DNA from: Buxus sempervirens | Taxonomy: Eukaryota; Streptophyta; Magnoliopsida; Buxales; Buxaceae | Assembly (NCBI GenBank): GCA_947561395.2 | Contig: OX387194.1 | Span: 17,780,048 to 17,844,047 of the forward strand | Direction of reading: 5' to 3' | DNA length: 64,000 nt | Shown here: positions 14,259 to 49,627 of the stretch, piece after piece | Layout of the letters: each line of letters opens with the position of its first letter | How positions within the stretch are numbered: position 1 is the first letter of the stretch | Made by a program: the position numbers and the translations under genes | The notes under the pieces: generated by a model | The model's database searches: none | Told to the model about the DNA's origin: nothing | Seen by the model: only the letters and a program-made list of their open reading frames with translations

Positions 14259-14669
14259 ATTGAGACCAAGGTTTACTGATTTATTGCCGTTGGGCGTGCC
14301 GCCCAGGGCACCGAACGACATTTTGGCGGCTTTGCCGAAAAAATGATTTTCCGGTGAATTGAGAGAAATTTCCGAAATTTTGCCAGAAAATTTTTTTCCC
14401 TGTTTTTTAATCCAAAATGAAAGATTTGCAACAATAATATGTGAAATAATTGCATTTGCATGTACAATTGCACTTAAATTACTACAAATAGCAGTTATAT
14501 ACTTCAAAAAATCATGTAAACACAATGTGACATGTAAATGTAATGATCAGTCCCATCGGGGTAAAGCTGTGCACTGTGCTTAAATCAAAAATGACAAATA
14601 TGATCCAAATTTTAAATTAAACTAAAACAACAATATATAGAGTAAAAAACATACAATCATACCGTCAAA

Positions 14670-15604
14670 TCAGCAATGAAATGAATGATGCGGCTCAAGC
14701 CCTGCTCTTTCGCTAATAAAATGACAGTAACGCTTCCATCCCATCCGAAATCTGTACTCTCTCTGATATGAATGGACATGCTGTTCATACTCCTTCAGTG
14801 TCATGTGAGCCATGATACCAACTAGAGGGAAATCATCATAATAGTAGCAGCGATCTGGCTCTGGCTGTGGTGGTGACGGAGGAGACAGCGTAGGATAACC
14901 AAGATGCTCGTATGGAAGGGCTACTACTACAGCTTTAATAATAATAGGTATAGGTATATCATAATAACCATACGAATATGGGTTCACTGGAAAGATCCCA
15001 AATGGATCAAATATTTACATGTGTGCTCCAGGATATCTGTATGATGTACCGTAACTATTACTATCTGATGAATTTGCTGGCCCAATCTGCTGAGGATAGT
15101 AGACTGGATAGTGTCCCTGGCTCAGCTATGATGGATACTTCTCTCCATAAGAACTCGATGATCTTCCAACATCTAAAGATCTAAAACTCTGTGCTACAGA
15201 GGACGAATCATCATGCATCCCTGTATGCTGTCTTTCCTTGCCTTTCTTCCTCTGAAAGGAATATGCCTCACTCTCATCATAACCTCTAAGCCCATGGTCA
15301 ATATCCTGTGTGGCATGATGGAAAGCCGCCTCTCCAGTAAAATGGCTCAAACCTGGGCCACTGGTGCCAATACCACCATGAGTACCACTAGTACCACCAT
15401 CTCCATCATCATCATCTGATGATCCGGACTCATCATCCTCATCTGTCTCCTCCTCTTCTAATAATGATGACTCAACATGTCTATGGGTTGGGATTGGGTC
15501 TGATGTCATCGCAGTAACGGAGGAAGGAACAACTCTAACGTATCTATCTAGTGAGTCTCCGCTAACCTCTCCCCCCCCCCCCCCCCCCCCCCCCTCTTCC
15601 ATAG
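14670..15604 (-). pseudogene. hAT transposase, C-terminal part
   Basis: This continues the frame that breaks off at 45331: rejoining the two sides across the LTR gives a continuous reading D-V-N-G-A-M-E-E-G. It encodes a glycine run (from a C tract on the plus strand), an acidic D/E/S-rich stretch, a tyrosine- and proline-rich linker and a charged C-terminus (R-F-R-M-G-W-K-R-Y). In-frame stops occur near 15126 and 15020, so it is not functional. The C-terminal extension after the dimerisation domain is variable in plant hAT transposases. Confidence 0.75.
15571..15594. repeat. Poly-C tract of 24 nt inside transposase coding sequence
   Basis: An uninterrupted C run on the plus strand encodes about eight glycines on the minus strand. 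Length in the assembly may be unreliable. Confidence 0.95.
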
Positions 15605-16756
15605 CTGCATGTAAAATCCAAAATTTTTAATAATAATTAAAATTTTGATTTTTAAGACTATTAATTTATTTAAATGATGAAAGTTCAGAAAAAAAAGGGG
15701 TTAAGTGGTTAAACCGGAATTCTCGGATGAATCCGGGTAGAAATTCTAATTATAAAAATAAGAAGCAATAATTATATTGTAATTTATTGGTTTAGGGTGA
15801 AGTGTCACAAAGGCAATTTGGAAATTTCAGCAATTCGAAGATTATGTAAATGTGGGTAAGAGATGTCATGTTATAGTCTCAATAGTCAATAATAGTGTTC
15901 GGAAAATTTTATTAGATATAATTAAATGGTGTTATATTTGGTTGGGTGGCAAATCACTTGATCAAGGGCTAATGGAATGTCGGGGTAGGAATTTCGATGG
16001 AGTTGCACTGCGGCGGATCATAAAGAGGGAGTTGAAGAGTTTGAGAGAGCATGTGGTGTTTGGAATTCCATTGCTGTTGGGGAAGTGGATTTTTAGAGTC
16101 CCATTTGGTTGCTGGAGAAAAGTAGAACAGCAGAAGATTAATCAAAATCTGAGTAAAAAATCAGATCTTCAAAAGTGAGTTTAAATCTATCGGATCTGAA
16201 GTAGCGAAAGGGAAGAGAGGATTGTTCATGGAGGAAGGGGGTGTCTGATCTATTAGATCAGAGATTTAATCCAAATATCATTTCAGATTCAAATCAGGTA
16301 AGTTGATTAATGTTAGATTAGGTTAGTTTGATTCTTTTCCATCAAAATTTTGTGGAGGATTGGTTCAGATTTAAAGAGGATTAGTTCTGAAAATTTTCTG
16401 CAGAAATTTCAGATCGTGGAGAGGTTCTGGTCGTGGAGAACAATCGATTTTCATTGCTGATCTTGGTGAAGTTGGATTCCAGCAATCAAAAGGCAAGTAG
16501 CACCTTTGGTTTGTCATGTTTTTCCTATGGTTTGAGATCATCTAAAGATCTGGAAATGAATTAAACGAAATTGTTATATTTTGGTCATGAAAGGGGCATT
16601 TGATCCATGAGTCTTATGAGTTCTAATTTAATTAAATTAGAAAAGGTTTAGATGTGTTATTTGGATGTTTATCAGGGTGTTAGAAGGGATTTGAATGGAG
16701 GAATAAGGTTCAATTCATGAAATTTTTTATTAGCCGCAAGTTGTTCATGAAATGTG

Positions 16757-16875
16757 CTTGGCGCCAAGTGATGCCAAGGTGTGCTGACCTCTTTGAGGTC
16801 AGCGCTAGTTCATTTTTTTTGGGTGGGCTGATTGGCGCCAACCTCTCCGGGTCAGCCCCGAGTCAACGCCAACAC
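16757..16875. repeat. CpG-rich inverted-repeat cluster in solo LTR leader
   Basis: The cluster contains CTTGGCGCCAAG, GCTGACCTC/GAGGTCAGC and GGCGCCAACC-type modules. It lies about 260 bp downstream of the donor-like GCAAGTAG at 16493. Confidence 0.75.
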
Positions 16876-18079
16876 TAAATCTAAGAACCATGTGCGGCTG
16901 AGTTTGTATTAATTGAGATTAAATATAGTTTAGGCTTCTCAAACTTGTTTACATGAGTTCATCTAAGTCTTAATTAGCATCTATACTCAGTAGAATCTTA
17001 TGGAAGCCAACTTAGTGCTATGGTTTAGGAGAATTATTGGGAGAGATAACACTAAAGACATGTCATAATTTTCTGCAGCACATTAGTTGAGATTCTTTTG
17101 AGTTTAAATTGTGTCAAATATATTTTATAACCCCACTTGAGTTACTCAAGAATTTAATGGAGAAATTTAGAACTGTTAGTAATCTATGCAGATTTATTTT
17201 TGACAATAATGTCTATGGAGTAGTATATATTGAGATCACTTAGAGGATGATAGCAAATCTGAATTCTTCATATAGAGGATTAACTAATAGGGGAATACTG
17301 GAGCAGATTGTATCCTGTATCTAAATGGGATTCCAGTACAAATGTAATAGCAATTGGGGCTGATTTTGTTCCATTAGTAATTAATGGTTTTAACTTGAAA
17401 ATGCTAACCTATGGGGACTATCTATGTAAGACCCCGAATTTTCCTAAATATAAAAGTAAATTAATAATTAATATTCTTGAGGATTATTATTGATAGAAAT
17501 ATTTTATTAATGTAGGTGATATTATAATTAGTGGAGATCCAGAGTTGGGCGCAGATCCAACCATCTGATCATGAGATATCGAGGTATGATCAATAGTTTA
17601 ATTCTGATGAGTTGTGATTGGGCAAGGTACATTGAGTTTTATATAAGTATGTTGCGTGGGATAGGAGGTATATAAATACATTAAAATAACCTAAAGGAAT
17701 ACGAATGGTATTCTAAGCGTATTGCTCGTATTCGTAAGCCGCAAGAGAGAAAGAGAGAGAGAGAGAGACCGAGAACGATCGGAGAAGAAGAAGAGAAGAA
17801 GAAGGAGGAAGAAGGGAGGACGTTTGTCTTGTGTTCTTCATCATCTGGAGAGTGCCTTGCATCTGTGAGCACTACAGTTTAGAGAAGGAAGAGGAGAACG
17901 CACGATAGAGGTAGGTAGCATTGTGTTTTATCGCTCATTTTGTATTCACGATTGGTTTAATCCCTATTGCATGTTTTTGTAGTGTATAATCATGTATTTA
18001 GTTTGATAACAACCTTATAAGTATGTTAGAATGATCTTGAACGTGAAAAATCAAGTTTTGAAAAACTGTATGTTCGTTT

Positions 18080-18215
18080 TTGGGAGACCGCCAAGCTTAT
18101 TGTGCTCAGCGCTCCCAGGCGCTCATTGAAAAAATTAGACCGCCCGAGACCGCTTATTGACTTATCGTGGGCGATCGAATTTGAACTACCACTTACCCTA
18201 GACTGCATGAGTGAT
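18080..18215. repeat. GC-rich repeat cluster in solo LTR leader
   Basis: Short modules AGACCGCC, CAGCGCTC, AGGCGCTC and AGACCGCCCGAGACCGC recur in direct and inverted order, about 170-300 bp downstream of the donor at 17911. Confidence 0.65.
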
Positions 18216-18948
18216 CCTGAGCGCTCTGTGTAGAAAATGCAGATTTTCGTATTTTTAACCCCTGATTCAATTCTAAACTATTTTTAATCAATTTTAACCT
18301 TTAAATAAGATGTTTTATGACCAAAATAAATTACCAATTCCCTGTTTTATAAAAGGAGAAAAATAGGAAGGTACTTAGGGTAATTAGTGGCCAAGATTTG
18401 TAAATAGCAAGAAACAAAAGTTTGGATGAACTGAATTTGTAAACTTGAATTAATTAATTAAGTGACATGTAAATTTATACTATTAACCAGAATATGATAT
18501 ACAGGATTCCATATCAGATCTTGAACCCAGTTAACCCAATAAGGAAGGAAATTACAGATATAACCATTATATGCCGCTAGGCATTATTACTTACGGAAAT
18601 ATTAGTCCCTAGGGATTGTTGGTGTCTAGTGGGCATAGCTAGTTATGGATCCATAGTTTTGGCTAGATAGCTAAGGGATATTTCATTTGGGTTGAGTTAC
18701 TCCCTGTTGCGAACGTGCTTCCTTTGCAAATTGGTTTGCCCTGGAGGATCCTATGCCTGGAGGGACACCCCGATGCTCCGCTGGTGATTCCCTATACATG
18801 TGAATAAGCGACCATCTCCATGTAATGATTCTGGTGCTGCATGCTGGTGGTACTTGCCAACTCGGTTGAGTTCATGTGCAATAAGTCGATGACTATGGCT
18901 CTTATCTAAGGTGATCTTCGCGGGTTTGGATATCATTAGTAGCGTCGC

Positions 18949-20738
18949 AGTAGACACCCCAAATTGCACTACAAAATGAGAAAATAATTGAAAATATGTA
19001 ATTGGGATTTGAAACAGGTCAAAAATGCACAAAATTTCATCATATAGGCAGTGCCCGTATTGTATCTGCGGGCTGGTAGCGCCCGAAATTAGTGTGCAGG
19101 CATGCAATGCCCGTATTAAGAATGCGGGCAGCACTTGCCCGCAATGTATATACGGGCGCAAGGTTTTTGTTCGAATTTTATCTTTGCTCGATTTTTGAGC
19201 CTTATCTACATCCAAATATCTCTCTAGATAAGCAAATTCATTTATTTATTTATTCGAATTATACTATTTATCCTTGTTGGCCATGGATTGGCATTATCCC
19301 TATTTTTCAATCCAATTTGGGGGATCATGGTATATCCTTCTGGACCAACCATGCCCCTGGGTTTGCCTATAAATAGAGGGCAGATTCTCAAGCAAAGGGC
19401 CATTAATTTTGAAGTCTGAAGAGCTCCAAGTGAAGAAAGGAATCACTGCTGCTCTGCTTGCTCAATCCAGGTAAGTCCCTTTCCCTTTTATTTTCTGTTT
19501 TCAATTCTATAAGTAATCTTATCTTCTCCATTGCTATAGAATAAAGCCTTCTTATACTTGTATTCCTAAACCTGTCTCCAAGTACCTCAAGAATCCTCTT
19601 TAGCTGTAAAACGTGAAGAGAGAGCTAGGGGAAAGGGGAACAGGTGGATCCCTAGAATAGCACCCCATAATCTGTTGTTCTTATTTTCTGTAGAATAAGG
19701 CCTTTTTTGTGTTTTTATACCCAAACCTATCTTTAAGTATCTCAAGAATCCTCTCTAACCGTAAAACATGAAGAGAGAGCTAGGGGAAAAGAGAACAGGT
19801 GGATCCGTAGGGTAGACCCCCATGTGCTCTGATCTGTGAGATATGGCTGCTTTGAATATCCTGTTCATGTTTTAATGGTTTTATGTTGAATCTGAATGAA
19901 TCATATGAATCCATGATGTTTATAGCATGAGATCCCAATTTTTTCTAAAATTTGGATTTTCACATCTTTGCACCTACAGCACTGTTTTCTCGATTTTTGT
20001 GATAATAGGCTAAGATCCTGGATCTATCATGACCTATATGATAGATCTGGATTCAAAAGCCTGAAAATAACTTCTAGGGTTTCATGAGGTGGTTTTTGAG
20101 TCCTTTTTCACTTTTGAGAGAAGACCCTACAGTCTAAGTTCTCCCCTTTTGATGTTCTTCATCAACGTGGGTATTTTTGGTTTTGATTTCTTGATCTTAT
20201 GTGAAATTTGGGCTATATTTATGTCCTGAACTGTTCAAGTTCAATTGTGCAATATTTTATAAAAGTAATATTTTTTCTCGATTTCCAGAATTTAACTTGA
20301 AGCCAGATTTTTTATGTTTTCACTTTAGATTTGTTTTCTTTATCTTGATTTCAGTCAATCATGAAACCCAAGTAAATGGCTCTTGTTTTCATACGAAGGA
20401 CCCAGAATTAATTGGATCATTCACATGGAAAAAAGCCATACATTCTTTTATTTTTCTTTCACTTTTGTTTTGATAAGCAAGCCTTTGTTTATTTGAAAAA
20501 CATGAACAATGCCTGGCAACCACCTTGTGTGGATGAATAGGGGTGCCTAACACTTTCCCCTGTTCATAACCTAATCCCCTTACCCATCTCTGGTTGTTTT
20601 TTTAATAGGGTTATTTTTACCCTAAATTTGCCTTTTTGTGCTTATTTTTACCCTAAAAAGAATGGTGGCGACTCTTTGTTTTTAACCAATCCCGTGTGAT
20701 GATTAGGAAGTCATTAAATTGATTTTCCATGTCTCACA
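18949..20738 (+). repeat. 5' LTR of the Tat/Ogre-like element
   Basis: 1790 bp. It starts AGTAGACACCCC, where relatives have TGTAGACACCCC, so the terminal T has changed. It ends CATGTCTCACA. A CpG-rich palindrome cluster lies at 19052-19162, a TATA box (TATAAATA) at 19368-19375 and a splice donor CAG/GTAAGT at 19471. An internal duplication of about 135 bp (about 19522-19655 and 19681-19815) carries CTCAAGAATCCTCT and GAGAGAGCTAGGGGAAA. Confidence 0.92.
19052..19162. repeat. CpG-rich palindrome cluster upstream of LTR TATA box
   Basis: Modules GCCCGTATT...CTGCGGGC, GGGCATGCAATGCCC and TTGCCCGCA...TACGGGCGCAA form overlapping imperfect hairpins. The same block recurs in the 3' LTR at 36849-36960. 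Confidence 0.85.
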
Positions 20739-20740
20739 AC

Positions 20741-20758
20741 TGGCGACTCTGCTGGAGA
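20741..20758 (+). other. Primer binding site
   Basis: TGGCGACTCTGCTGGAGA begins two bases after the LTR end, the position of a gypsy primer binding site. Ogre-type elements are reported to use tRNA-Arg; I did not check the complementarity to a tRNA. Confidence 0.7.
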
Positions 20759-22006
20759 CTTGTGGATTTCAGCCTTTTGGTGTATTTGTTCATGTTTTTT
20801 ATGTTTTTTATTTGCTTGATATTTTGTGTTCTTTGAGCATGTTTGGTATGTTCTACGGTTTTGCTTGCTATTCTGTGATCTTAAGCATGTTTGCTATGTT
20901 TTAAATCTAAATTATTGCTTAAAAGTTCATGGGGGTAGAAACATGCTTAATTCTAATTTATTGGATTGTTTCTAGAAACATGCATAGGGGAGGTTCGTTT
21001 TGCTAAACCATGCTGATTTCTTGCTGTATTTTAATAATAGCATGCTTTAATTTTCAACATGTTCTCCATGATGTATTTTGGCTGTATAACATGATCATAT
21101 GTTTGCATGTTTGGGTGATTCTTGTGAGCATGTTTTAGGTGCTATAGGATTTCTTTGTTTCCTTGTATTAGTTTACTTTGAATGTGCTTTCCTATTATGC
21201 CTTGGTTTGTATATGCATGACTGCGAAAAGAGTGGCAAGGGATTGGGACGTTGTGAATGCACCTATTGTTTATAAATGCACTGTGCACATTTATCTTTTA
21301 CACAGCCTCCCCATAACCTATAGGAAGTTGAACCCGAATGTGTGTAGCTTGGCGCAACGAGGTCGATACTTCGGAAAGCGAAAGTGGAAACATTCACCTT
21401 AGAACTTTGGGCTAATGATGTGATGACAATGTCGATCTGTGATTCAATTATGGTCATCACTAGGCTTGAGTTCTAAGTTGCCATTAAGCCAAAACCCAAA
21501 ACCCTTACGCTTGAAGGTGGAGATACACGTTTTTGGCTAAAGTACACAATTACGTTGGGATATGGGTTTGTAATTGAAGGAAGGCCGTTTGCATGGTTCA
21601 CAAGCCAAGGCATAATGCGGATGCCATATTGAAGGTAAACAAGGTAACAAGGTAGCCTTAAATTTTGCATTATTTTGATGTCATTGGGTGTCATGGTGTC
21701 CATCTGTTTGGGATGAAATTGGCCCAAATAGGCATGTATCCTAAAATTGGTGTAACCCATAGGAAGAGTTTCAACTCTTATCAGAATTAATCATACCCTG
21801 AGTTCATATGAGAGGCAACCCAAGGTACCAAATTCTGAGCATGGTGTCCAATTTGGAGGGAACATGTGCCCTCATGAAGCATTCATGTAAATAGGACCAA
21901 AGTCCACTGTGGGATGGTTTAGAAGCCTTGCAAGGGTGAACCGTATGTTTGGATGAGCAATCAAAGTAATCAAATCATGTAAAAACAGAAAAAAAAGAAA
22001 AAAAAG

Positions 22007-22120
22007 CTCCGTAAACCGCATTTAGTATACGGGCTGGTCTCGCCCGTGTTGGCTATACAGTCACGGCTCGCTCGCAATTTAAGTGCGAGCAAGGCCAGAC
22101 CGTACTGTATATCCGGTTTT
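22007..22120. repeat. CpG-rich palindrome cluster in the leader
   Basis: Hairpin-capable pairs include GGGCTGGTCTCGCCC, ATACAGT...ACTGTAT and CTCGC...GCGAG. Style and size resemble the clusters in the LTRs although the sequence differs. Confidence 0.75.
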
Positions 22121-22283
22121 TGTGGAAAATTCAATTTTAACAGTTTTTTTCCACCAAATCTTGTTCCTTTCACCTTTAAGTGATGATAAAGGGAAATGAG
22201 TTTGAATAAAATGTTTCAGAAAGAAAAACAAAAACAAAATAAAATAAAAATGTGAAACAAAATTTCTTGAAAAAAAAAATCTT

Positions 22284-22955
22284 TGGGCCTCTGAAAGCCT
22301 TTGAATTTCAGATTTTTTTCTTTAGGCCTTTGAAAGCCTTTGAATTTCAAACCTTTTTCAAAAATCTTTGGGCCTCTGAAAGCCTTTGAATTTCAGATCT
22401 TTTGGGCCTCTGAAAGCCTTTGAATTTCAGATCTTTTTCTTTGGGCTTCTGAAAGCCTTTGAATTTCAGACTTTACCCCTGGGCCTCTGAAAGCCTTTGA
22501 ATTTCAGATTTTTTTCTTTGGGCCTCTGAAAGCCTTTGAATTTCAGACCTTTTTCAAAAATCTTTGGGCCTCTGAAAGCCTTTGAATTTCAGATCTTTTT
22601 CTTTGGGCTTCTGAAAGCCTTTGAATTTCAGACTTTACCCCTAGGCCTCTGAAAGCCTTTGAATTTCAGATTTTTTTCTTTGGGCCTCTAAAAGCCTTTG
22701 AATTTTAGACCTTTTTCAAAAATCTTTGGGCCTCTGAAAGCCTTTGAATTTCAGATCTTTGGGCCTCTGAAAGCCTTTGGATTTCAGACTTTTCTCAAAT
22801 ATCCCTGGGCCTCTGAAAGCCTTTGAATTTTAGATCTTTTTCTTTAGGCCTCTAAAAGCCTTTGAATTTCAGACATTACCCCTGGGCCTCTGAAAGCCTT
22901 TGAATTTCATACTTTACCCTTGGGCCTCTGAAAGCCTCTGAATTTTAGATTCTTT
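22284..22955 (+). repeat. Tandem array of 17 units of about 32-48 bp, each with a hairpin core
   Basis: Each unit has a core GGGCCTCTGAAAGCCTTTGA followed by ATTTCAGA and a variable pyrimidine spacer. The core holds a perfect 7-bp inverted repeat TCTGAAA...TTTCAGA. Four spacer types follow in a repeated order (T-rich, TTTTTCAAAAATC, TCTTTTTC, CTTTACCCC) across units 6-12, so the array has a higher-order period of about four units. It lies wholly in the leader. Confidence 0.93.
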
Positions 22956-22965
22956 TCTCTTTTTT

Positions 22966-23085
22966 GTGGGACCTGTTGGAAGCCCTAGAATATTCCAACA
23001 AACCTTTGGTTGGTATTTTTCGTACCAATCAATTGAAATTTTTGTGGGACACTTGGAAGCCCTAGAATATTCCAACAATTATAAT
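22966..23085 (+). repeat. Direct repeat pair flanking the end of the array
   Basis: Two copies, at about 22966 and 23042, share TTTTGTGGGAC and TTGGAAGCCCTAGAATATTC followed by CAACAA. Inside each, TTGGAA and TTCCAA form a short inverted repeat. Confidence 0.85.
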
Positions 23086-23201
23086 AAAAAAAAGCAAATA
23101 AAGAAAAAAATCCAAACTCGTGTTCACCTAACCTGCATATAGGCATTCATAGGTATGCGACTGAGATCAAATTGGTACTGATATTTTCCTTATTTTTCCA
23201 G

Positions 23202-25611
23202 GTACCAATACACTTGCAACCATAGCTCCTGTAACCAGATCAAGAGCTCACACCATGAATCCCATTGAAAATGAAAGCTGATGTTCCTAACCCAGATGTT
23301 GCCCTGCTACAGGAACAAGTGGTAGGACTAGCCCGAATGCTAGAGAACTTACTTGCGGTGCCGGCCCAACAAGTTCAAGCCCAGAACAAGGCATCCACTT
23401 CCAACCAAGCACCTCCACCCCAAATCAACATTCCACCTCCGGTTCAACCTATGCCTGAACCCATTTATGAACCTATGTCTCATCCCTGAACCTATACTGA
23501 TCAGGGATGAGATAGTTGAGTCTGAGAAAGAAAAAGAAAAAGAGGGAATGAGTGGAGGTTGAAAGGAAGTTCATGCATAGACTGGAAATGATCCAAGATG
23601 AACTGAGGGAGGTAAAAGTGGTGAACAACTTTGGAGGCACCAACTTTGAAGACTTGTGCCTATACCCTAATGTTAACCTGCCAGCCAAGTTCAAGAGCCC
23701 GGACCTGGACAAATATGACGGCACTGGCTGCCCCATGAACCATCTGAAGTTGTACTGCGGGGCCCTATGTCAATTCGGTCAGGATGAGGGCATTCTGAGT
23801 TAGCTCTTCCAAAGGAGCTTGACTGGAACTGCTTTGAGGTGGTTTGCCACCTTAGACCATTGAAAGATCCGAAGATGGAAGGACCTAGCAGACGCCTTCC
23901 TAGCTGAATACAGGTTTAATTCAGAGATCGTGTCAGATAGGTACGATGTAATGAGAATGAATAAGGGAATGGATGAATCTATAAGGCAATATGCCAAGAG
24001 ATGGAGGGAGACAGCCTCTCAGGTCAGGCCACCTATGCTAGAGCAAGAGATGATTTCCACTTTCATCAGTACACTAGGTCAACCATTCTACAGCCACCTT
24101 GTGGGTCAGACCACCACTAATTTTGCTGCCTTGGTACAAGTGGCCGATCGAATCGAAGACGGGATTAGGTCGGGTAAAATAATTGACCATTCTGCTATGG
24201 TCAGTCAGCAGGACCCCAATCTGAAGAAAGGAAGTGGGATAAAAAAGAATGAGAATAAGAAAGAGGGGGAGGTGAACATGGTGCAGCCACCATCTGGCCC
24301 TAACAAGCCCATACAAATCAATATACCCGCTCATTTTTCTACTCCATCCGCTCCATCTACCCAGGCCCCCATGAGGGTTAATGTTCCAGCAGCACCCTCA
24401 GACCAAAAGAGGGCTTTTACTAAAGAGGAAAGGGATGCCTATTTCGTAGCAAGGAGAAATAGGGTTTTCACCCCTATTCCAATGTCCCCTCCCAGCTGCT
24501 ACCAACTTTATTGCAAGCAGGCTATATTACCTTAAGAGCACCAAATCCGAATGTATCCGAGGGGAGAAATTTTGACCCTTCCACCACTTGTGATTTCCAC
24601 ATGGGTGCACCTGGGCACCCTACTGACAAGTGTTGGCCTTTGAAACATGCCATTCAAGACTTGCTTGACCAGAATACCCTGTCTTTTAATACAGGGGCTC
24701 CCAATCCTCCTAGAACGGACATTGGCCAAAACCCTTTGCCTCAGCATCATGGGGCAGGCCCATCTAATGTAATAGGGTTCATTTCTGCTGATAAAATAAC
24801 CTTTGACCCATCTCAGTTAATTGCTCCTATAGGGACAATGGTCAAAGTGTATTTTGACAGAGGAAATAGGGACAAAAAGGTAAACGTGATTTCAAAAGGG
24901 AATGATCGTACTACCGAGAACATTAGCTCCTCGTTAGACCGGGTCTCATCTCTCATGGCCCAAATGAATATAGCCAAACCGCCTTTGGTTATCAATTGCA
25001 GTCCATCCACTTTTGCTTCACCCATTCAGTCCAAACTACCACTGGTCATTAACTGTGACCATCTCACTACGTCAGTTAACCCTTCGTTCCCGCAACCAAA
25101 GCAAGTTCAACCCTTGGTTGTGGATGTTCCTCCTACTCAAACTTCCTCATCCAAGTCCAAACTTCCCCCACTAGTGATAAATGTCCCTAAGCTTTCCTAC
25201 TCTGAATCAGCTATACCATGGAACTATAGCGAAAGCTTCACCACCACATTTCCTACAGTTGAGGTAGAAAGTAAAAAAGAAGTGAACCTCATGATGAGCT
25301 CAGGAGAGTGTGTAGGTGAGGGAGAGAAACAAAAGGAGACTGAGAAGGAAAGGGAAGAAGCCAAGAAAGAGAAAAATAAAGGAAAGGCCAAGGTAGGGGA
25401 AGATTCCCCTCAGGTAATTGACATTGAGGCTGCTGACCTCATCAAAATCATTAAAAAGAGTGAGTTCAATGTTGTCGAGCAGTTAAACAAAGTCCCTGCC
25501 CAGATCTCAATACTGAGATTATTTTTAAATTCTGAAAAACATAGGGACTCTCTGTTAAGGGTACTTAACAGACCAACTAGGCAAGATGGTTGGGCAGATT
25601 TTATCCCATAA
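23202..25611 (+). pseudogene. gag of the Tat/Ogre-like element, frameshifted
   Basis: Gag packages element RNA in cytoplasmic particles. The start carries T-R-S-R-A near 23240. The core, in frame 2 from 23552 to about 24520, reads like the retrotransposon gag domain (K-Y-D-G-T-G-C-P-M-N-H-L, then W-F-A-T-L, then F-N-S-E-I-V-S-D-R-Y). Stops interrupt it at about 23801 and 23860, and shifts occur near 23275 and 24520. Frame 1 from 24511 then gives a zinc-knuckle-like C-x2-H-x4-G-H-x4-C and a long lysine/glutamate-rich tail. It cannot give one protein. Confidence 0.85.
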
Positions 25612-28660: not shown

Positions 28661-28699
28661 CCTCTTAAGACAAATTTCCCTGATGAGGCAATACTATTT

Positions 28700-36827: not shown

Positions 36828-38553
36828 CAAATTTCATCATATAGGCAGTGCCCATATTGTATCTGCGGGCTGGTCGCGCCCGAAATTAGTATACGGGCAT
36901 GCAATGCCCGTATTAAGAATGCGAGAAGCACTTGCCCGCAATGTATATACGGGCGCAAGGTTTTTGTGCGAATTTTATCTTTGCTCGATTTCTGAGCCTT
37001 ATCTGCATCCAAATATCTCTCTAGATAAGCGAATTCATTTATTTATTTATTCGAATTATACTATTTATCCTTGTTGGCCATGGATTGGCATTATCCCTAT
37101 TTTTCAATCCAATCTGGGGGATCATGGTATATCCTTCTGAACCAACCATGCCCCTGGGTTTGCCTATAAATAGAGGGCAGATTCTCAAGCAAAGCGCCAT
37201 TAATTTTGAAGTCTGAAGAGCTCCAAGTGAAGAAAGGAATCCCTGCTGCTCTGCTTGCTCAATCTAGGTAAGTCCCTTTTCCCTTTTATTTTCTATTTTC
37301 AATTCTAGAAGTAATCTAATCTTCTCCATTGCTATAGAATAAAGCCTTCTTATACTTGTATTCCTAAACCTGTCTCCAAGTACCTCAAGAATCCTCTCTA
37401 GCCGTAAAACGTAAAGAGAGAGCTAGGGGAAAGGGGAACAGGTGGATCTCTAGAATAGCACCCCATAATCTGTTGTTCTTATTTTCTGTAGAATAAGGCC
37501 TCTTTTGTGTTTGTATACCCAAACCTATCTCTAAGTATCTCAAGAATCCTCTCTAGCTGTAAAACGTGAAGAAAGAGCTAGGGAAAAAGAGAACAGGTGG
37601 ATACGTAAGGTAAACCTCTATGTGCTCTGATCTGTGAGATATGGCTGCTTTGAATATCCTGTTCATGTTTTAATGGTTTTATGTTGAATCTGAATGAATC
37701 ATATGAATCCATGATGTTTATAGTATGAGACCCTCATTTTTTCTAAAATTTGGATTTTCACATCTTTGCACCTACAGCACTGTTTTCTCGATTTTTGTGA
37801 TAATAGGCTAAGATCCAAGATCTTTCATGATCTATATGATAGGTCTGGATTCAGAAGCCTGAAAATAACTTCTAGGGTTTCATGAGGTGGCTTTTGAGTC
37901 CTTTTTTACTTTTGAGAGAAGACCCTACGGTCTAAGTTCTCCCCTTTTAATGTTCTTCATCAACGTGGGTATGTTTGGTTTTAATTTCTTGATCTTATGT
38001 GAAATTTGGGCTATATCTATGTCCTGGACTGTTCAATTTCAATTCTACAATATTTTATAAAAATAATATTTTTTCTAGATTTCTAGAATTTAACTTGAAG
38101 CCAGATTTTTTAAATTTCACTTTAGATTTGTTTTCTTTATCTTGATTTCAGTCAATCATGAAACCCAAGTAAATGGTTCTTGTTTTCATAAGAAGGGCCC
38201 AGAATTAATTAGATCATTCACATAGAAAAAGCCATACATTCTTTTATTTTTCTTTCACTTTTGTTTTGATAAGAAAGCCTTTTTTCCTTTGAAAAACATG
38301 AACAATGCCTGGCAACCACCTTGTGTGGATGAATATGGGTGCCTAACACCTTCTCCTATTCATAACCTAATCCCCTTACCCATCTCTGGATGTTTTTTTT
38401 AATAGGGTTATTTTTACCCTAAATTGGCCTTTTTGTGCTTATTTGAGATTTTGGTGTCTATTCACACCTAGAAATAATGGTGGCAACTCTTTGTTTTTAA
38501 CCAATCCCGTGTGATGATTAGGAAGTCATTAAATTGATTTTCCATGTCTCACA
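36828..38553 (+). repeat. 3' LTR of the Tat/Ogre-like element, left end missing
   Basis: It matches the 5' LTR from AAATTTCATCATATAGGCAG onward to TGTCTCACA, but nothing like the first 80 or so bases of the 5' LTR precedes it. Palindromes lie at 36849-36960, TATA at 37165-37172 and donor at 37268. Near identity over 1.7 kb was judged by eye. Confidence 0.9.
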
Positions 38554-39240
38554 GTCGCCCATAAGTCGTACGGTGGTATAGCATATCGTTTATGGTCATC
38601 TCAAACGCGTATCCTTCTTTGTGAGTCCTACAATGATACTGAGATCACAAACACTTATTGTAAGCACCTCATTTTTGCACTCCCAGAAGAGCCGAAAATG
38701 TAAAACCCTAGGCATAAAGTCAAACCCTAAGGGGTGAAAATTTGACTTTTTGATCAAATGATAATTGGCCACCTTGCTTTATCTTAATGGATAGAGAATT
38801 TTGACACGGTTCCAACGCAACTGAGTTTGCTGGAATCGAAGTCCGGATGAAGGATCTATGGGCCAGTCAAACTTGAGGGGGAGCCGAAAGTTGACTTTTT
38901 GCCGAACCCCGAGCCAGGTGCTTAGCCCTATGTCATTGGATAAAGGGCTCCGATACGGTTCTAACGCAACTAAGTTTGCCCAAATCGGTGTCCGGATGAA
39001 GAAGATATAAGCTATCGAAGTTTCCGAGCAGCAAAACCCAAAAAGCTACACACCTAGCAAAAGGCTGCACACGTGGCGAGTGGCGCAGGAAAATATCTCG
39101 GGGGGCAATCTTTAAATATCCAAACATGTCAAATATCTCAGGGATCAAATCAAAAATTTGCAGGGACCAAATCTGCTAATATTCAAGTGTATCGGATGAA
39201 TTTGCAAAAATCCAGGGACTAAATCTGTAAATATCCGATT

Positions 39241-39487
39241 TGTATCCGACATTAAATGTCGGATACACACTCTTCTCTTTATATCCGGACTCAAATGTTG
39301 GATACAAAAGATTTTCTAGCGAGATTCGCGCCGATTCCCTGACAAATTCACGGCGAAATTGAATTTTCAAAATTATTATGTCTTGTATCCGACATTTAAT
39401 GTCGGATACAAGTAAAGCCTAGTGTATCCGGCCTTGGAGGACGGATACACATGGAATATAGTGTATCCGGCCTCCAAGGCCGGATAC
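39241..39487. repeat. Series of near-perfect palindromes just upstream of TATA
   Basis: Four strong hairpins: TGTATCCGACAT with 3-nt loop (39241-39267), CTTGTATCCGACAT with 3-nt loop (39382-39412, 14-bp perfect arms), GTGTATCCG...CGGATACAC (39422-39450) and GTATCCGGCCT with 3-nt loop (39463-39487, 11-bp perfect arms). A fifth weaker pair lies near 39280-39305. The last ends 12 bp before the TATA box. Confidence 0.95.
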
Positions 39488-40782
39488 CATATGTTTGTCT
39501 ATAAAAGGGGCAGCACCCCCTCTTGCCCGAGGTTGGCTCCTTTTGCTGGTTTGTAGCTTTCTTCCCCCACCTGTTTTGGTGCGAACCTCCCTCTTCTCAG
39601 CTCCCTTAGCCCCCATTGCCTTCCCACTCTCTTCCAAGACCATCCCACCCTTGTTTCCTTCTTCTTCTTCACTTTCTTAATCAAACTAAAGGAGGTTTGT
39701 TGCTGTTGGAGTAATGCCTGTGCACCAAGGGACTTTCTGGCTGCTGTCCAGCTACAAGGAGGTGTTTCCACACTGCTCCAAAGCTCAAAAACCACCAGGT
39801 GAGGTTCCTCGCCACTTTGTATTACACATATATTAAAATGAGAATTTTCTGAAATGTTTTTTAGTTGGTCTTCTCCCCTAGCATGAATCTGTTTTAAGAT
39901 CTGTATTTCATGAGTATTCTTTCATTTTTTTTGGTAGCATGGAGGTTTCCAAAGGTGAGGGAGACCCATGCACGACCCCATGGGAAGATGGGAAGCTTGG
40001 TCATTCCATGTTAGGCCACCAAGTTTGCTGTTGGGAGATCCTTGGTGATTCAATAAAGGGGAGCTTGTTCCTCTATCACTTCATCCAATGTACCCCTATA
40101 TTAAACCCCCACTTCCCTTCTTGATTTCTTTTTTTTTTCTTCTTCTCTCTCACTTTTTCTCACAATTTTTCTGGGAATTTTCTCTGCTGGCCGTACCTCT
40201 CTTTGTTTGCTGTTCTTGATGGTAGTTATAGCAAGCATGTAATCTCTGCTTGTTAGTGTCTTTCCCCCTTTATTTTGCTGCTGTTGGAAATGCCAAGCAG
40301 GGTCCCTCCTTCCCTTAACTTGCTGTTTTGCTGTGTCTAACATGCTTCCCTTACCCTTCTAATCTACTGTCTTTACAAATGAATGCATGCTCCCATCCCC
40401 CTGTAACTTGCTGTATTTTTTCTTTGGTATGGACGCGTGTTCCCCCTCCCGGCTTGCTGTTTTTTTATATATGTATAGCATGGTGAGCCATCGTCATGCT
40501 CCCCGTACTGTGATCCAGTTGAGTTGCTGCTGGAGACAGTAGCAAACTTTCACTATTTGCTGCTGTCCCAGCAGGCCTGAAGCCTAAGACCAAGCCCAGC
40601 CCATCAGCCCATTACATGCATGCACCCCTCCCCCTAACATCCATGTATTTCCAGCCCCTATTACATGTTAAACCCCCATTTAGTCGACGCTGTGCCTTTA
40701 CCTACAGCAGGTTTTTTTTTTAATATTATCTCTTAATAGTGCATGCATGAGGTGCCTTTATTTTATTGGATCATTGTGAATA

Positions 40783-40786
<4 letters not shown>

Positions 40787-40814
<28 letters not shown>
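40787..40814. repeat. Poly-C tract of 28 nt in solo LTR
   Basis: Uninterrupted C run following TATGTG. Length may be affected by sequencing. Confidence 0.95.
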
Positions 40815-43800
40815 ACCATTTGCTGTTTTGATCCTGGACCATGTCCCCACACCCGCAGACCCCTGTGGTGGCCCATGTGAGCTGCTGCTGTAGGCAGCAG
40901 CAGTACCCCTATCCCTTTTCATGCTATCTCCACCATGAGCATGAACCCCTTTACCCCCCTTTATTTTTGCTGTTTGAGCCTTCCCAAAACCCTTGTTGCT
41001 AGCTGCTGTCCCAAGATCCCCAGCAGGCCAACCCAAGTGCCTAGGTTTTCCCCAAGTTTATTCCTTTAACCCAGGAAAGCATGCTCCCCTCCCCCTCTGT
41101 CTTCGCTGATTTCTAGCATGCATAAAACCACCTGGGGTAGCATCTGTCTTAGCAAGATTGGCTATCAACTTGCCTCCCTAGGATGACCCCAAGGCCTATG
41201 TGTGAAGGTAAACCCTCCCCCACCTACCCTATGCAACCCTCACTCACTTGGCAATGTCTAATCCCTTCATATTAACTGCTTTTTTTTTATTGCTGCTGTT
41301 CCACGCTTTACAGCATGCTGATTTTGTGATTAATCTACATAGCATGGAGACCTAGCCGATTGACTTTGAGTGCTTGTTGGTTAGTAGCCCAGAAGTGCCC
41401 AGGTAGGGGTGCCAAGGCCCCTACCTTATTGCTATATGGTGTTGAGAAGAAGTGAGGAGGCAACAGCTATATGACCTCCTTCTTCCCACTTGCTGTAGTT
41501 AAGAAACCCCCTAGGAAGGCCATGAAACCATCCTAATTGCAAAGCCCTGAAAAGGTGCCATTTTAAGGTGATCCGACAACTCAGGTCGGATCACCTAGGG
41601 CTTGTGTGTAGCCAACAAGTAATGTCGGCTACATGGTAGAAATGCCATTTTGGAATATCTTGTGATCTTTGCCATGTTTGAATGATATTTCCAACCAAAC
41701 TTGATGAACCAGTAGGGTTTCCGGGTCACCCAGAGACCCAACATGGGACATGGACCGCCGATCTAGCGCGGTACATCAGTGGGCATTCCAACGGGGCCCA
41801 CCAAGCCCAACAAACCCTGAAGCATGAAAATAAGCAACTTAAGCAATCCAACCCAACCGGGCGGGCCAAACCCAATGCGGCCCACCCGAACTTGATTTGT
41901 GGAATGTAATGTGTGATAGATAGCATGGTTTGGCCGAGACCAAGGGCTAGGGCCTATCAGACCCGCCAAGCCCATTAACCGAACCGAGTAAGGGTGCAAT
42001 CCCTAAGCTTCAAGGAATTTGGGCTTTCAAGCCCAAAAATTGACCACGGGCCCCAAGCCCAATGTCTAGGGAACTTTGGCAAATTTAAACAAGATAATCT
42101 AAAAATACTTTGGCAACCATCATGGGGCCCACCCAGGGTCCCGCATACCAATGCCGACCCACTTTTGCATGAAAATCACTTAAAACCCTAACTTGAACAG
42201 ATAATTAAAATCAATTCATTTAACTTAAGCCCAAAGGGCCTCCTAGGACTAGACAGAGGCCCACCAAGGGTACTTGGGCTTGACTAAGCCCACCAAAGAC
42301 ACCGTGGACCTTCCAATGGGGCCCACCCAATCAGACTCAGATCACCTAATTAAGCAAGATAAAAGCAATTAAAGGGACCCACACCACTCAGGTGGTCCTG
42401 CCAGACTCAACCAAATGACATGCTGGAATAGGAATCGGGTGAGAACCAAAGTGAGTTGACTTAAACCAGGGAACCCACGGGACCCGTCATCTGACGGGGT
42501 GGTCTGGGTGTCTACGGACTTCCCCAGACCGCAACCGAGACCTTTCTCAGAATCTCAAGCCGCAGACCAGCCCAATGGACAAGATTAGGCACCCAGGTGT
42601 CCGCCTGCACCCCATCAGGCGGTGGCGACTCCCTTTTTCCCCGTTTTACCCTCCCAGAGGCACGCAAATCCATGCGCCCCGCTGTGCGACCCCGCACACA
42701 CTTATTTCTGATGTTGTTCACATGCAGGATGCATGTATTGGAATGTTATGGTTGGATGTGACTGTTTAGTACATCCAGGATTTATATTGGATTCTATTAT
42801 TGATTTCTGAATCATGATCTTGATATACTTTATCTGTTCACAAATACTTAAACTGTTTTACATGCTGATTTGTGTTCCATGATCGATATGAATGTTTATA
42901 CGAGCCTGTTTACTCAAAATTGCTTATTCGAGCATGAAAATCTATTTTATTGATTATGAACTGTTTATAGCATGCATGTGTTGTCTACTGAAATATTTGT
43001 ATCTCACCCTACTTCTTTATGTTATTTTCAGCTAATATGCGAGAGGGGGATCATAGTGGTGATTACCAGAGTGATCTTGTGGGCTATACTCCGGAGGATT
43101 ATTTCTACCCATATTTGATTTGAGGTTGAGGATAGATGATATTTTTATGGAGTTATTTGATAGTTGATCCTTTTATATTCGGTTTTAATATATCTGAGAG
43201 ATTGAGAGTTTAGTACCTTTTTATACCAGACTTGAACCCGTTGACTTGGATTGGATTATTTATTTTATGATGATGTTAGGCTACACTTCCGCACAATAAT
43301 GTTTTCCGCACTCTGATAGATATTGAATAAAGGATTATTTAACTTTTCAGTCTGGTTATTTATTGATTATTATTTGATATGGGCCAGTAGCATCTCAAAT
43401 TCGGTTGTTGGGCTGAATTCGGGTTGTTACAGTGACGAACCGGATTTAGGTCAAGGTCGGTTTTTCATTGACCCAGCTTTGGGGCGTTACAATCTAAGTG
43501 TGAGTATAATATTATGGTGGATGCTAGTTGATTATTTGTGTAAGCCAAACGTAGTTGGCGCCCAGTCCCTATTTCATAATCAGGTGCGGCTATTGCTATT
43601 GAGTCCAAAATTTTCAGGTTGCTCTCCTTTGATACCAACCCATGCAACCTTGATAAACCTTAGCAATATGTTGTAGGGGCTTTTTAAGTGAATTCCTTCT
43701 TCCAAGTTAATATGGGGCAAACCACCAGTAGATAATCTGGTTGGGTTTCGGTTTTCAGCGATGATGTAATTTAAGTCTAATTCACTAAATTTGGTCGATT

Positions 43801-45330
43801 CATTACCAGATTTGCCAATAACAATCATGTGCGGCAGATTTGTCTTTTGAGTATCACTAAATTTCTAGCTTGCTAATCCTATCGAATTGAGTTAATCTAG
43901 GTTCATTTGGCGTCCAAGTGTTAGTAGAAACCTATAAGGGATAATTTAACAATAAGGATTTAGAATTAACTGGTATTGGGATAAATAATTAGAAATTAGC
44001 AAATCTGAAATTATACATTAAGAGAATTGGTAATTTAGGAAACCCTTGAGATAATTTAACCGCATTGTAGTAGCTGTAATTATGGCATGACCTAAATATT
44101 ATTCTGAATATGTTTTCTTAATAAGTCACTAGTTATATTCTGTGGGTTGTAAATTGAAAGGAAATTGATGAAATGAGTAAGTTAAGAGCTGTTATTTTTG
44201 TTTTGTGTTTAATCAGAAGTTTCAATGCTGGATTTATTTTCTAAATAATGTGTTTAACTTAAGAAACTCCAGATTTGAAGTGTTATCTATTTTAGTGGAA
44301 TTGTATTGAAATTATTGTGCTGAGCTAGATTTGAATATATTGATTGTTTCACGAAGGCTTTAATTGAGTACTGTCTGCATATCGAGAGTTGGTATTGCAA
44401 TTGCATATTATGCTTGATCACACTTGTCTGTATGTTGCTTTATTCGACGAATTACTTTTGGTTTGAATTGAGACCTTTGTTTATTTGTTGGTTTAATTTT
44501 AAGCTATTTATGGCTTAGCTCGTTATAAATCCATAATTTAGCTAGTAAGTGAAGTCCGTCTAATTTGTTTGGTTAAAGTCTAGCTTCCTTCATGCATTTC
44601 CTTTATATGGAGAAGCCTTCCATGAGGGAAGTGCTGCAAATCAAATTACCCTAGTGTGTTTCCTCCATATAAAGAGGCCTTCCATGAGGGAAGTGCTGCA
44701 GCAGCTCCCCTTCCACCCCAAAGGGGCTGAGGTTTATTATTGACGGCAGATTTGTCAGTGCAACAATGGTTCTCAAATTGGAATGTTATCCCTTTCCACC
44801 CTAACGAGGGTGAGGTATTGTGATTTCCACCGAGAGACGATGATATTGGAATCAGTTATTGTAGAGGCATCAAATTATGCAGAGGCATCAGTTTTGGTAA
44901 AGGTTCCCAGACTGGAACTATTTGGAGCTAGAACTTAACCTTACAAATTGGTTAAATTTCACGAGTCCCACCGTACTATGTGGTTTGATATTGCTTTGCC
45001 GAATTAATCGGATTATCTGTGGTTAATCGCCGAGTTATATTTTTAATCGTGCATGTTTTAGAAATAAAATAAAATGAATTGAGTATGCATGTGCTACTTG
45101 CTGACATATTCGTATCTCACCCGTTTTGTTTTGTTTTCAGATCTCGGAAAAGACGTTACCGACGGGTATATGCTTGGCTCAGGTGAGTTGGGGAATTTTC
45201 GTTGACTCTGATTATATTATTGTTTATTTCATGCTTTCCTTCACTCTGATATAGCGATCCTGTGTAGAAAATTAACCCTTCGGAGACAAGTTATGGTTTA
45301 TTTCATGTAACCCGGATCCGGGGCATTACA

Positions 45331-47913
45331 CTCCATTCACATCGATGCCCATCATTGCAGTGTATGCAATGACTGGGCTATGACTACCATTATGCTCATC
45401 CATCTCAACACATCTAACCCACTCTGCGAATGGATCCTCCTTACCAACTTCATTACTGAATAACACATCTAAAGGATCCTTCACAGTCGTAGCGGTGGTG
45501 CGCTGCTTTATCTCTAACTGCCTCGTCCTTAGCCTCATGTTGTAATGGCAGAAGACCAACTTCTATAACCTCTGATATGCTAGCCGATTCCTTTGCTTCA
45601 TATGCATGAGTGCAAATGTACTCCAATTGCGCTCAAAAGCAAAAGAGGATGCTGTCTGAGCCAATATTCGACATGCTAGCTTCCTCATTGTGGGGGCATT
45701 TGTGTCATACATCGCCCACCATTCACCTGGATTTACAAATAAAAAATATTAACATTTTTTGAGAAATTAGAAATTTAAAATATTAATATTCATAATCCCT
45801 TGTCACTTACACCCCATCATCTGCGTCCTCGATGCAATCGCCGTAGTCAAACCGAACGAGCCCATCACATCTCTAAATTGTATCAACTGGTAGTAGAATA
45901 ATTTGAAAGGGTTAATACTTAATATAACTATTAAGAAGAAGTGATATGCATAACATAAGTCAAGTTAAATGCTACGGCCCTACCTCGTTTCCAAATTCCC
46001 CAACTGATTCTGAATAGGGCCCCAACTTCATGAAGACCTGGTGGACCGAAGCGCAAAGGTCGCTGTGTGTGCCAAGGTTCTCCTTATAATGATACTTTGG
46101 ATTCAAATAATATGCTACATTGACGATCACAAGAAAAAACATTAGTATAATAATTAAAATATAATTATAAACATGATTGAACATAAATGATTCAAATAGA
46201 ATTATAATTATACCTGTTGAATGCAGAGGATGAGCTAGCGACTTGAACCATCTATCCTTAACAATCTTGAGTACCCACTGATATGATTTGGGTGCAGCGG
46301 CCTTAATCTGAGATTTCATCACCGCCATACACTTATATATGGATCCTACCGTAGAATAGGCATCTGTGTCAAGTATCCTCAGTACACAGTATATGGGCTG
46401 TAGTATATCAATCAACTCTCGCACATGCTTTCAAAAAGTGCTGGACAAAACAATGTCCTCTACTCTCCTCCCCATATCTTTGCAACTCTAAGCACATCTC
46501 GTCCAATCCTCGCTAGTAAATAGAGATCTCAATCCCTGCCTGTGGCTTAGAATACTCTCCAATGCAATATAGTTCGTTCCTAATCCGGTAATCCCTAGCC
46601 GAATTATGTCCCCACCACATCTCTCTCTCATCTTCGCTAGTACATAATTGTGGTTGTACACAAATGTGGTGAGTGCTCGTGCATCCCTCAATGTCGTAAG
46701 CACATTGCTTCTCTTGCCAATCTCCTCTAGCATCAATTCAATGCAATGTGCAGAACAAGGCACCCAATAGAGGTTATACCGCGCCTCTAATGTCTCGTCA
46801 GCTTTCTTGAATGCACTGGCACTATCTGTCACAATCTGAACCACGTGCTCAGGGCCAACCTCCTCTATCACCCTCTCTAATAAGACAGTAATATAGGGCG
46901 CATCCTTGATATTGTGTGATGCGTCAACAAATCTCAAGAACACTGCCCTGCCTCTACAATACACAATGAAATTAATGATGGATAGTTTAGTAGGACCTGT
47001 CCATCCATCACACATGATGGTAACTCCAAACTGCTGCCAATGGGGTTGTAAGGATGTAATAAAATCTCTCATCTCTACCTCCTCCTCATCCGAGTACATA
47101 CCCATAATCTCCCGAGGCGTAGGAGGCAAGACTCCCTGACCCAACTCCTGGATAGCATCAACCATGTTCTTGAAATGTGGGCTCGCTGCTGCATTCGCTG
47201 GAATGTGATTGAAGATAAAAAAAATTTTGGATATGAATTTCCCCATCTTCTGCCTGACATTGCCCTTGCTCCACATTTCCTTCAATCTCTTCTGCTTGCC
47301 ACCAGCTGAACGCCACATACTCGGCTCCATAGGATAATCGGGCATCCTGGTGCTCTAAGAACAAGTGAGTCCAGGACCAGCCCCAGCCCTATGTCTAGGA
47401 GCATCAACATCAGCTGCATCTGCATCTCCTCTAGAGGTACCACCACTGTGAAATCCGTACCTCCCAGTCTCTCTCCTCTCAAACTCAGATTGCAAAGATG
47501 CGCACTGAGACTCTGAATGCTGCCCTCTCTGCCTCTATCACTATATCGTCTGGGTACACGGTGTCACCATCATCATCATCATCAGCCACAGAGGGTCGGA
47601 AAGGCTCTGCCAATCTACGTCTAACCTCCTCCCATGCATGCCTCTTCTCCTCCCTAGATGCACTCCTTAACTCTAAGTGCTCTATCATCTGCTTCTTAAC
47701 CTCTGGAGGGACTCGAGGACAGTTGGCCACATTCTTGTAGCCGTGCGCCAAATGCTGCTTCAACTGTGATACTCCACCACCCTTTATGATTTGCTAGCAA
47801 TAGTTGCAGACAGTCTTATTTCTGTCTCCCTCGAATCTGGTGCCATGGGCCCAGCCAATATCCTGCCTCCTGCCACTAGGGTGGTCCCCTCCACTACCAC
47901 TGCCAGATGCCAT
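45331..47913 (-). pseudogene. hAT transposase, N-terminal and core parts
   Basis: Starts M-A-S-G-S-G-S-G-G at 47913. A BED-type zinc finger follows (C-N-Y-C, then L-K-Q-H-L-A-H-G) but a TAG stop splits it near 47792. A DUF659-like core (46488-47345) shows M-C-D-G-W-T-G-P-T, D-S-A-S-A-F and W-V-P-C-S-A-H-C-I-E. Two more stops occur between 46488 and 46424. Introns separate L-N-P-K-Y-H-Y (about 46100) from the C-terminal hATC dimerisation domain (R-K-L-A-C-R-I-L-A-Q-T, F-E-R-N-W-S-T-F, 45580-45740). The frame runs to the LTR junction at 45331 and resumes at 15604. It is inactive by its stops alone. Confidence 0.88.
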
Positions 47914-49321
47914 ACTGTCTGTCTCTAACAGGCTAACCAAGAAGCGCTACACACTGGAATCCGAACCCCTGCATAGTGACAGAGTACAACAAAAAATTAT
48001 GATTATTAATCCACATTCCACAATACTAAAATTACCAATACCAACTAATTATATTTTCTTATTTATAATTTATAAACTATATTAACTTTTAGATTTATTC
48101 CAATTCTTTGCCTTATTTTAATATTTTTAATAATTCAGAAAAATTTAAATATAAAAAATTATAAGAACTTCTATTCTTCAAAATAAACTGTTCTATAATA
48201 AACAAATTAATTTATGAATTTAATAATTTTAATTAGAGTAGTTATCTATTTTTATTAATTTTATGAATAATTTATTAATTTTCATAATTATATAAAAATT
48301 TATAAAAACTCTGATTCTTCAAGATAAATTGTTCTATAATAAACAAATTAAATTTAGGAATTTAATTTGAGTCGTTATCTATTTTTATTAATTTTATGAA
48401 TAATTTATTAATTTTCAGATTAATTAATTCAAAAAAATCATAAATATATAAAAAAAATTATATAAACTCCGATTCCTTAAAATAAATCATTCTACAATAA
48501 ATCAATCAAATTTATGAATTTAATTTGAGTACTTATCTATTTTTATTAATTTTATAAGTAATTTATCAATTTTCGGATTTAATAATTCACAAAAATAATA
48601 AGTTTTTTAAAAATTAATCCGGGAACACCCATTTATAGATCGGGTGTCCCGATATATCATATATAATTATCATAATATAATACAATGTTTATGTAATTTT
48701 AATGAATTAAAAACAAATTATATAAATTTTCGGATTTAATAATTGCTAAAAAAATAAATTTCTTATAAAAAAAATAAAACGCCGACACCCATCTGTAGAT
48801 CGAGTGTCGGACTACCACATATCATGAAATCATAGCATTTGATGAACTGTAGATCAACAAAAATAAAAAATAAAAACGACATTCAAAAATCATACCTAAG
48901 GTGAGCATTGCAAGATGGCTTGAATCCCCTTTAAATCCACACAAAACACTCTCAAATCACTCTAATCATGTAAAGTAATGAAAATAACATGAAACAGAGG
49001 TTGAATCTGGCTAAAATCGGACAAAAAATGGCCTCCTAGAAGCTGTTCGTCATTCCCCTCTTCGTCACTCGATTTGGGCGAAATTTCACCCAAATCGAGC
49101 GACTTTTCTTCTAAAGTTGCTCGCACGCGTGCGATGGCACACGTGCGAGCGATTTAAACGATAAAAAAAAAAACGCAGAAACTCAAAAAAAATTCGCTGA
49201 GTTTCGACGAATTTTCGCTAAGAATCGCCAGGGAAACTACCCTGGCGATTTCCCCCGGCAAAACACATCGTCGGGGGCCAAAATTCGAAATTTCAGCAGC
49301 ACGCCAAAACTTAAAACACTG
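47914..49321. other. hAT 5' non-coding region with several short palindromes
   Basis: Very AT-rich from 48090 to 48900, with diverged direct repeats of about 140 bp containing TTATCTATTTTTATTAATTTTAT (in part). Palindromes: GGGAACACCC...GGGTGTCCC (48621-48658), CCGACAC...GTGTCGG (48780-48814), CTCGCACGCGTGCGA...ACGTGCGAG (49106-49137), ATCGCCAGGG with 6-nt loop (49224-49249, 10-bp perfect arms) and CCCCCG...CGGGGG near 49251-49277. The transposase promoter should lie here. Confidence 0.7.
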
Positions 49322-49627
49322 ATTGAGACCTTTCTAGCAAGAAAAAAAGTTGACTACTAGCGAAAGAGTTATTATTAAATAGGGAAATTTGTAGAAACAC
49401 CTCTTGAGGTTTCTGACAAATACAGTCAGACCCCTTCAAGTTTAAAACGATCACTAACCTCCCCTGAAATTCGCGCATTAGACACTTACACCCCCTACCA
49501 TCACTTAAACAACTAACGCCTTTTACCACTTGAAAATAAAGACCCAAATGCCCTTAGTTTACCTACATGAGTTATTGCATCTATTCTTCTATATTAGATC
49601 GGAGCGGATCTTTCTCTTCTTCCCCAT

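Follow-up and report, generated by a model that had tools for sequence, protein, structure and literature searches.

Five Mobile Elements in Four Layers

Five mobile elements, one inside another in four layers, occupy the locus described here, which lies in a 64,000-nucleotide stretch of the Buxus sempervirens genome (C21:17780048-17844047, in an assembly of 676.5 Mb and 247 contigs); this whole stretch is what we call the window. At the base is a hAT DNA transposon that contains an outer solo LTR, which in turn contains an inner solo LTR, and the inner LTR holds a Tat/Ogre-type LTR retrotransposon and a 4-kb solo LTR assigned to a second family of that type, with 105 bp between the two (Table 1). 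An earlier note had described this arrangement from five pairs of matching flanks, all of which were located as claimed, and the lengths that it restored to the three hosts (about 5.3, 3.65 and 2.41 kb) agree with the own lengths in Table 1, computed by subtracting the inserts and one duplication copy.

Table 1. Features of the stack, in window coordinates
Feature	Position	Strand	Remarks
hAT transposon, layer 1	14267..49321	- (transposase strand)	35,055 bp as found, 5,329 bp own sequence
hAT target duplication	14259-14266/49322-49329		ATTGAGAC; 8/8
hAT C-terminal transposase tail, severed by outer LTR	15126..15608	-	open frame in phase with piece right of 45336
hAT C-terminal dimerisation piece, Dimer_Tnp_hAT (PF05699)	45566..45748	-	E 1.1e-11
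hAT transposase ORF piece with DUF659	46488..47345	-	E 3.5e-42
Outer solo LTR, layer 2	15610..45330	+	3,649 bp own; TGTAAAATCC...GGGGCATTACA
Outer LTR target duplication	15605-15609/45331-45335		CTGCA/CTCCA; 4/5, one mismatch
Inner solo LTR, layer 3	17425..43491	+	2,410 bp own; TGTAAGACCCC...GGGGCGTTACA
Inner LTR target duplication	17420-17424/43492-43496		ATCTA; 5/5
Tat/Ogre-type LTR retrotransposon, layer 4	18949..38553	+	19,605 bp as found, 3' LTR damaged
Tat-type element target duplication	18944-18948/38554-38558		GTCGC; 5/5; single copy in relatives
5' LTR of Tat-type element	18949..20738	+	start set by empty site in relatives
Primer-binding site (PBS)	20741..20759	+	TGGCGACTCTGCTGGAGAC; 2 bp after 5' LTR
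pol pieces: RT, RNase H, second RNase H (RVT_3), integrase	27653..29848	+	domain matches
Antisense ORF	32304-32825	-	DUF7745, E 5.8e-16; Plant Mobile Domain (PMD) below cut-off
3' LTR of Tat-type element	36829..38553	+	without its first 83 bp
Solo LTR, second Tat/Ogre-type family, layer 4	38659..42700	+	4,042 bp
4-kb LTR target duplication	38654-38658/42701-42705		CTTAT; 5/5

A chance baseline for the flank matches was obtained from random position pairs within the region (200,000 draws each), which matched at 5/5 with a frequency of 0.0014, at no fewer than 4/5 with 0.019, and at 8/8 with 0.000045. Taken alone, the 8-mer around the hAT transposon is weak boundary evidence because it occurs twice more, at 29393 and 44467, within the 13.5-50.5 kb scanned. 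The boundaries have independent support as well: relatives of the host elements show single-copy sites there, and in the hAT and LTR families other copies have differing flanks outside the same ends. Chance was rejected as the source of the duplications because these single-copy sites yield the same boundaries. Containment gives the order hAT transposon, outer LTR, inner LTR and then the two Tat-type insertions. The fixed order of events in the earlier note therefore stands for the host layers, which precede the Tat-type inserts; nesting gives no relative order for the two innermost insertions themselves.

The neighbouring sequence has features of its own. Beginning 52 bp past the hAT duplication is a Pack-MULE-like element (49382-51888) with 204-bp terminal inverted repeats that are 88% identical and an exact 9-bp target duplication (TATTAAATA). 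Inside it, the minus strand carries fragments of pentatricopeptide-repeat genes, and the plus strand has a match to GUB_WAK_bind (wall-associated kinase) below the cut-off. At 12771-13123, a 175-bp sequence is duplicated in tandem, with 99% matches.

Single-Copy Sites in Relatives

Each junction was examined by aligning its left and right flanks separately to copies in the same genome, without joining the letters. Relatives were obtained by searching the 676.5-Mb genome with one stretch per host element. For the hAT transposon the best 8 of 42 matches were kept, one of which is the window itself; for the outer and inner LTRs the best 30 of 40 matches each were kept, again including the window once in each set, from 235 and 3585 first-look candidates, respectively. 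The sample thus consists of best-scoring copies and is non-random.

All 29 inner-LTR relatives run continuously through the site of the central Tat-type element, 28 exactly and L046 with a 1 bp overlap. At the site of the 4-kb LTR, 27/29 are exact, L064 has a 4-bp difference, and L049 is interrupted by another LTR. At the junction of the hAT transposon and the outer LTR, four of the seven hAT relatives (L002, L004, L005, L007) read straight through without gap or overlap, and the other three (L003, L006, L008) leave the junction uncovered. On C4, the matched ends of two hAT relatives are 5233 and 5239 bp apart, against 5304 and 5260 bp expected for the same points under the nested model. Two hAT relatives of ~5.2 kb lie tail to tail, ~100 bp apart, at C4:14096996-14107568 of this genome (G000).

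The junction between the outer and inner LTRs is continuous in 3/29 outer-LTR relatives, exactly in L011 and L012 and with a 4-bp gap in L010; the remaining 26 do not align there. In several relatives the alignment ends at 15609 or 45330, in support of the outer-LTR boundaries. Some of the nonaligning relatives have a spacing across the junction close to the nested-model prediction (986 bp against 989 in L016, 990 against 993 in L017, and 987 against 994 in L019), and six others (L021-L025, L028) have 708-719 bp, ~280 bp below the prediction. The earlier note had staked the nest on host elements aligning to other copies across their junctions; the alignments were run at all four junctions, and the stack was not refuted. 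The left part of the outer LTR (15610-17424) looks mosaic, with L010 and L011 ~72-91% identical to it left of ~16900 and 96-100% identical over ~16910-17410, a pattern that would fit an exchange of LTR segments among subfamilies.

The hAT Transposon and Its Severed Gene

Assignment of the base element to the hAT superfamily in the earlier note is upheld by the PF05699 dimerisation domain and DUF659, together with an 8-bp target duplication. Six relatives with differing flanks (L002, L003, L005, L006, L007, L008) begin with the same CAAGGTTT. The 3' ends were inspected in three copies: L003 has the same ends as the window (3' end CACTG) and its own exact 8-bp duplication (ATCTCCAC), L070, which is the far end of the L002 copy, has no clear duplication, and L069 has lost its 3' end. 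Compared as short terminal inverted repeats, the two termini of the window element, CAAGGTTTACTG and CAGTGTTTTAAG, agree at 7/12 positions. A search for a BED zinc finger at the N-terminus gave a match below the cut-off at 47797-47913 (E 0.083) and no match at 47701-47793.

The transposase gene is divided by the stack, with the DUF659 and dimerisation pieces to its right and the tail to its left. The frame read into the junction from its right side continues as the open frame to its left, and a single frame crosses the junction site in all four continuous relatives (L002, L004, L005, L007), with a frameshift in L004 and L007 a few codons past the junction in a G-rich stretch. The restoration of the reading frame described in the earlier note holds at the junction. 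It does not extend to the whole gene, which has an in-frame stop in the interval from the dimerisation piece to the junction and another, apparent one that divides the N-terminal piece. The hAT gene in the window is broken beyond the insertion itself.

The Outer and Inner LTRs

The outer and inner families are supported as retrotransposon LTRs because the sequence beside some of their relatives includes a PBS or a purine tract. In the inner family, the LTR is followed in L047 and L064 by TGGTATCAGAG, a PBS that we take to be of the initiator-Met type, and L063 is preceded by the purine tract AGGAGGGGAGGA. In the outer family, a PBS of the type seen in L047 and L064 follows L032, and a purine tract precedes L017; L027 has both ends and an exact target duplication (CCTGA). 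Both ends of the inner LTR are present in 16/29 relatives, which span 2,298-2,439 bp, and the flanks match with at most one mismatch in 12 of these 16. In L067 the flank pair has two mismatches, with no PBS or purine tract noted. The two LTRs may belong to the Chromovirus Tekay/Del lineage, whose full-length copies would carry a chromodomain integrase; the features seen here are LTRs, PBS and purine tracts.

The Central Element and the 4-kb LTR

The central element has the arrangement expected of the Tat/Ogre type. A single ORF carries RT_RNaseH (11-115), RVT_3 (170-288) and rve (455-538), so that the domains are in Tat order with a second RNase H between RT-RNase H and integrase, and the target duplication is 5 bp. 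The Tat-type call of the earlier note is borne out by this double RNase H and, for the 4-kb LTR, by a similar PBS beside 2/15 relatives. The integrase matches fall below the curated cut-offs (31.2 bits against 32.6 for rve; 20.8 against 25.5), as does a G-patch match (21.4 against 22), and gag gives a very weak match (E 0.1). The PBS (TGGCGACTCTGCTGG) begins 2 bp past the LTR and may be of the tRNA-Arg type, which is the type given for Ogre in one report (PMC9289625). The antisense DUF7745 ORF is located between pol and the 3' LTR. PMD and G-patch domains are among the commonest extra domains of plant Ty3/gypsy elements according to that report (PMC9289625). A tandem array with a 39-bp unit occupies 22280-22958, after the PBS and ahead of the ORFs on the gag side.

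The first base of the 5' LTR differs from other copies, in that 36/38 among the matches listed begin at base 2 of a query starting at 18949. Damage is found at the other end. Among the matches listed there are 36 relatives of the internal region; the one on C11 reaches 36833, and in the other 35 the match ends at or before 36750. In copies on C1 and C19, whose internal and LTR matches were taken as belonging to the same elements, the LTR starts ~4.9 and 1.3 kb beyond that point, compared with 78 bp before the truncated LTR here. The 19.6-kb element is incomplete: the beginning of the 3' LTR is missing, as is internal sequence next to it. The damage is likely a deletion that followed insertion because the lost part includes the expected site of the polypurine tract. 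The dating of this element proposed in the earlier note was carried out and gave an LTR divergence (K2P) of 0.049 +/- 0.006 from 56 transitions and 25 transversions over 1705 sites. At substitution rates of 1.3e-8 or 6.5e-9 per site per year, which are general background values, its age would be ~1.9 or 3.8 Myr, respectively, and the enclosing elements must be at least as old.

The start of the 4-kb LTR is given by the empty site in inner-LTR relatives and by a start common to L063 and L068. With a query ending at 42700, the match runs to the final query base in 22/39 other copies among those listed; the LTR therefore extends at least to 42700, but this does not fix its end. Its end is shown by the empty site together with the 3' flanks of 15 relatives, which differ except that they are shared in two pairs. 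The terminus is CGCACACA in the window and CGCGCACA in 10/15 relatives. Directly after the LTR end, 2/15 relatives (L074, L077) have a PBS of the TGGCGACTC type, like that of the central element, and it is this PBS that supports the Tat/Ogre-type assignment of the 4-kb LTR. Three copies of its end are found at C1:31815662, 31853598 and 31891534 in the same genome (G000), with a spacing of exactly 37,936 bp that suggests either a recent triplication in tandem or an artefact of assembly.

How the Stack Would Have Formed

The ends, the target duplications, the single-copy sites in relatives, the containment order and the family types are all observed, and a nested-insertion history running from the hAT transposon through the outer and inner LTRs to the two Tat/Ogre-type elements is, in our judgment, nearly certain. 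The hAT transposon would have inserted at 14266/49322. An LTR retrotransposon would then have entered its transposase gene and later been reduced to a solo LTR by LTR-LTR recombination, and another retrotransposon would have entered this outer LTR and been reduced in the same way. Two Tat/Ogre-type retrotransposons would then have entered the inner LTR 105 bp apart. One would remain as the 19.6-kb copy, later losing sequence where its 3' LTR begins, and the other would persist as the 4.04-kb solo LTR. Against the full model stand the mismatch in the outer target duplication, the junction support from 3/29 outer-LTR relatives (one of them, L010, with its 4-bp gap), the shorter spacing in L021-L025 and L028, the hAT 3' ends of L070 and L069, the flank pair of L067, the sub-cut-off integrase, and the choice of relatives by best score.

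That the three LTRs became solo by recombination after insertion is inferred, as are the dates and the later deletion at the 3' LTR; no internal sequence lies beside the three LTRs in the window, and so the recombination event itself is invisible. They could instead be fragments, or noncoding elements that end in TG...CA by chance. We consider this very improbable given the PBS and purine tracts beside relatives of both the inner (L047, L064; L063) and outer (L032; L017) families, the flank agreement in 12/16 both-ended inner relatives, which is as expected of solo LTRs, and the Tat-type PBS after 2/15 relatives of the 4-kb LTR. It is, if anything, even harder to credit that part of the stack was made by joining separate repeats during assembly. 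All of the parts do come from repeat families, and poly-C runs at 15571-15594 and 40787-40814 suggest hard-to-read spots. A misjoin, however, would not yield target duplications around every element, host sequence that resumes beyond all four junctions and a hAT gene in phase, and an assembly artefact was rejected on these grounds.

The nested-insertion history leaves the closeness of its last two insertions to be considered. Two Tat-type insertions only 105 bp apart, and a Tat-family LTR inserted within the same 105-bp stretch in relative L049, would fit a local preference for this part of the inner LTR in place of chance. The alignment breaks in other relatives are scattered on both sides (for example, L040, L045, L055 and L065 on the left and L050, L053 and L061 on the right), and the inner-LTR relatives were chosen with a query adjoining the 105-bp stretch, which biases them for this question. 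A hotspot was examined informally and set aside on these two points, and we regard local preference as improbable. The broader idea that Tat/Ogre-type elements in this genome prefer LTRs of the abundant inner-layer family near one stretch, such that stacks of this kind recur, is similarly improbable.

Relation to Known Nested Transposons

Nested LTR retrotransposons were reportedly described in maize by SanMiguel et al. in 1996. The stack here resembles the maize nests in having insertions within insertions with the oldest at the base, and it differs in that a hAT DNA transposon forms the base and solo LTRs make up three of the five members. The same arrangement, with the oldest elements at the base, is described for maize in a further account (PMC2773423), and another (PMC2672092) presents a tool that uses nesting to work out the order of insertions. 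For wheat chromosome 3B, 30,199 nested insertions with up to 8 layers are reported as reconstructed (PMC4290129). The wheat clusters represent the same phenomenon, and the four layers here are well inside the 8-layer range given there.

The central element shares with the Tat/Ogre/Retand group of Ty3/gypsy a double RNase H and a long post-pol region with an antisense ORF, and its PBS looks Ogre-like. A TRP28 domain is reported for Retand in one source (PMC11963269); in contrast to Retand as presented there, the antisense ORF here matches DUF7745 and, weakly, PMD, not TRP28, and the 3' LTR is damaged.

The stack is a clear but ordinary example of plant genome growth because nesting of up to 8 layers has been published for wheat. 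It leaves knowledge of nested transposons unchanged and serves as a clean worked example in which single-copy sites in relatives allow every junction to be checked.
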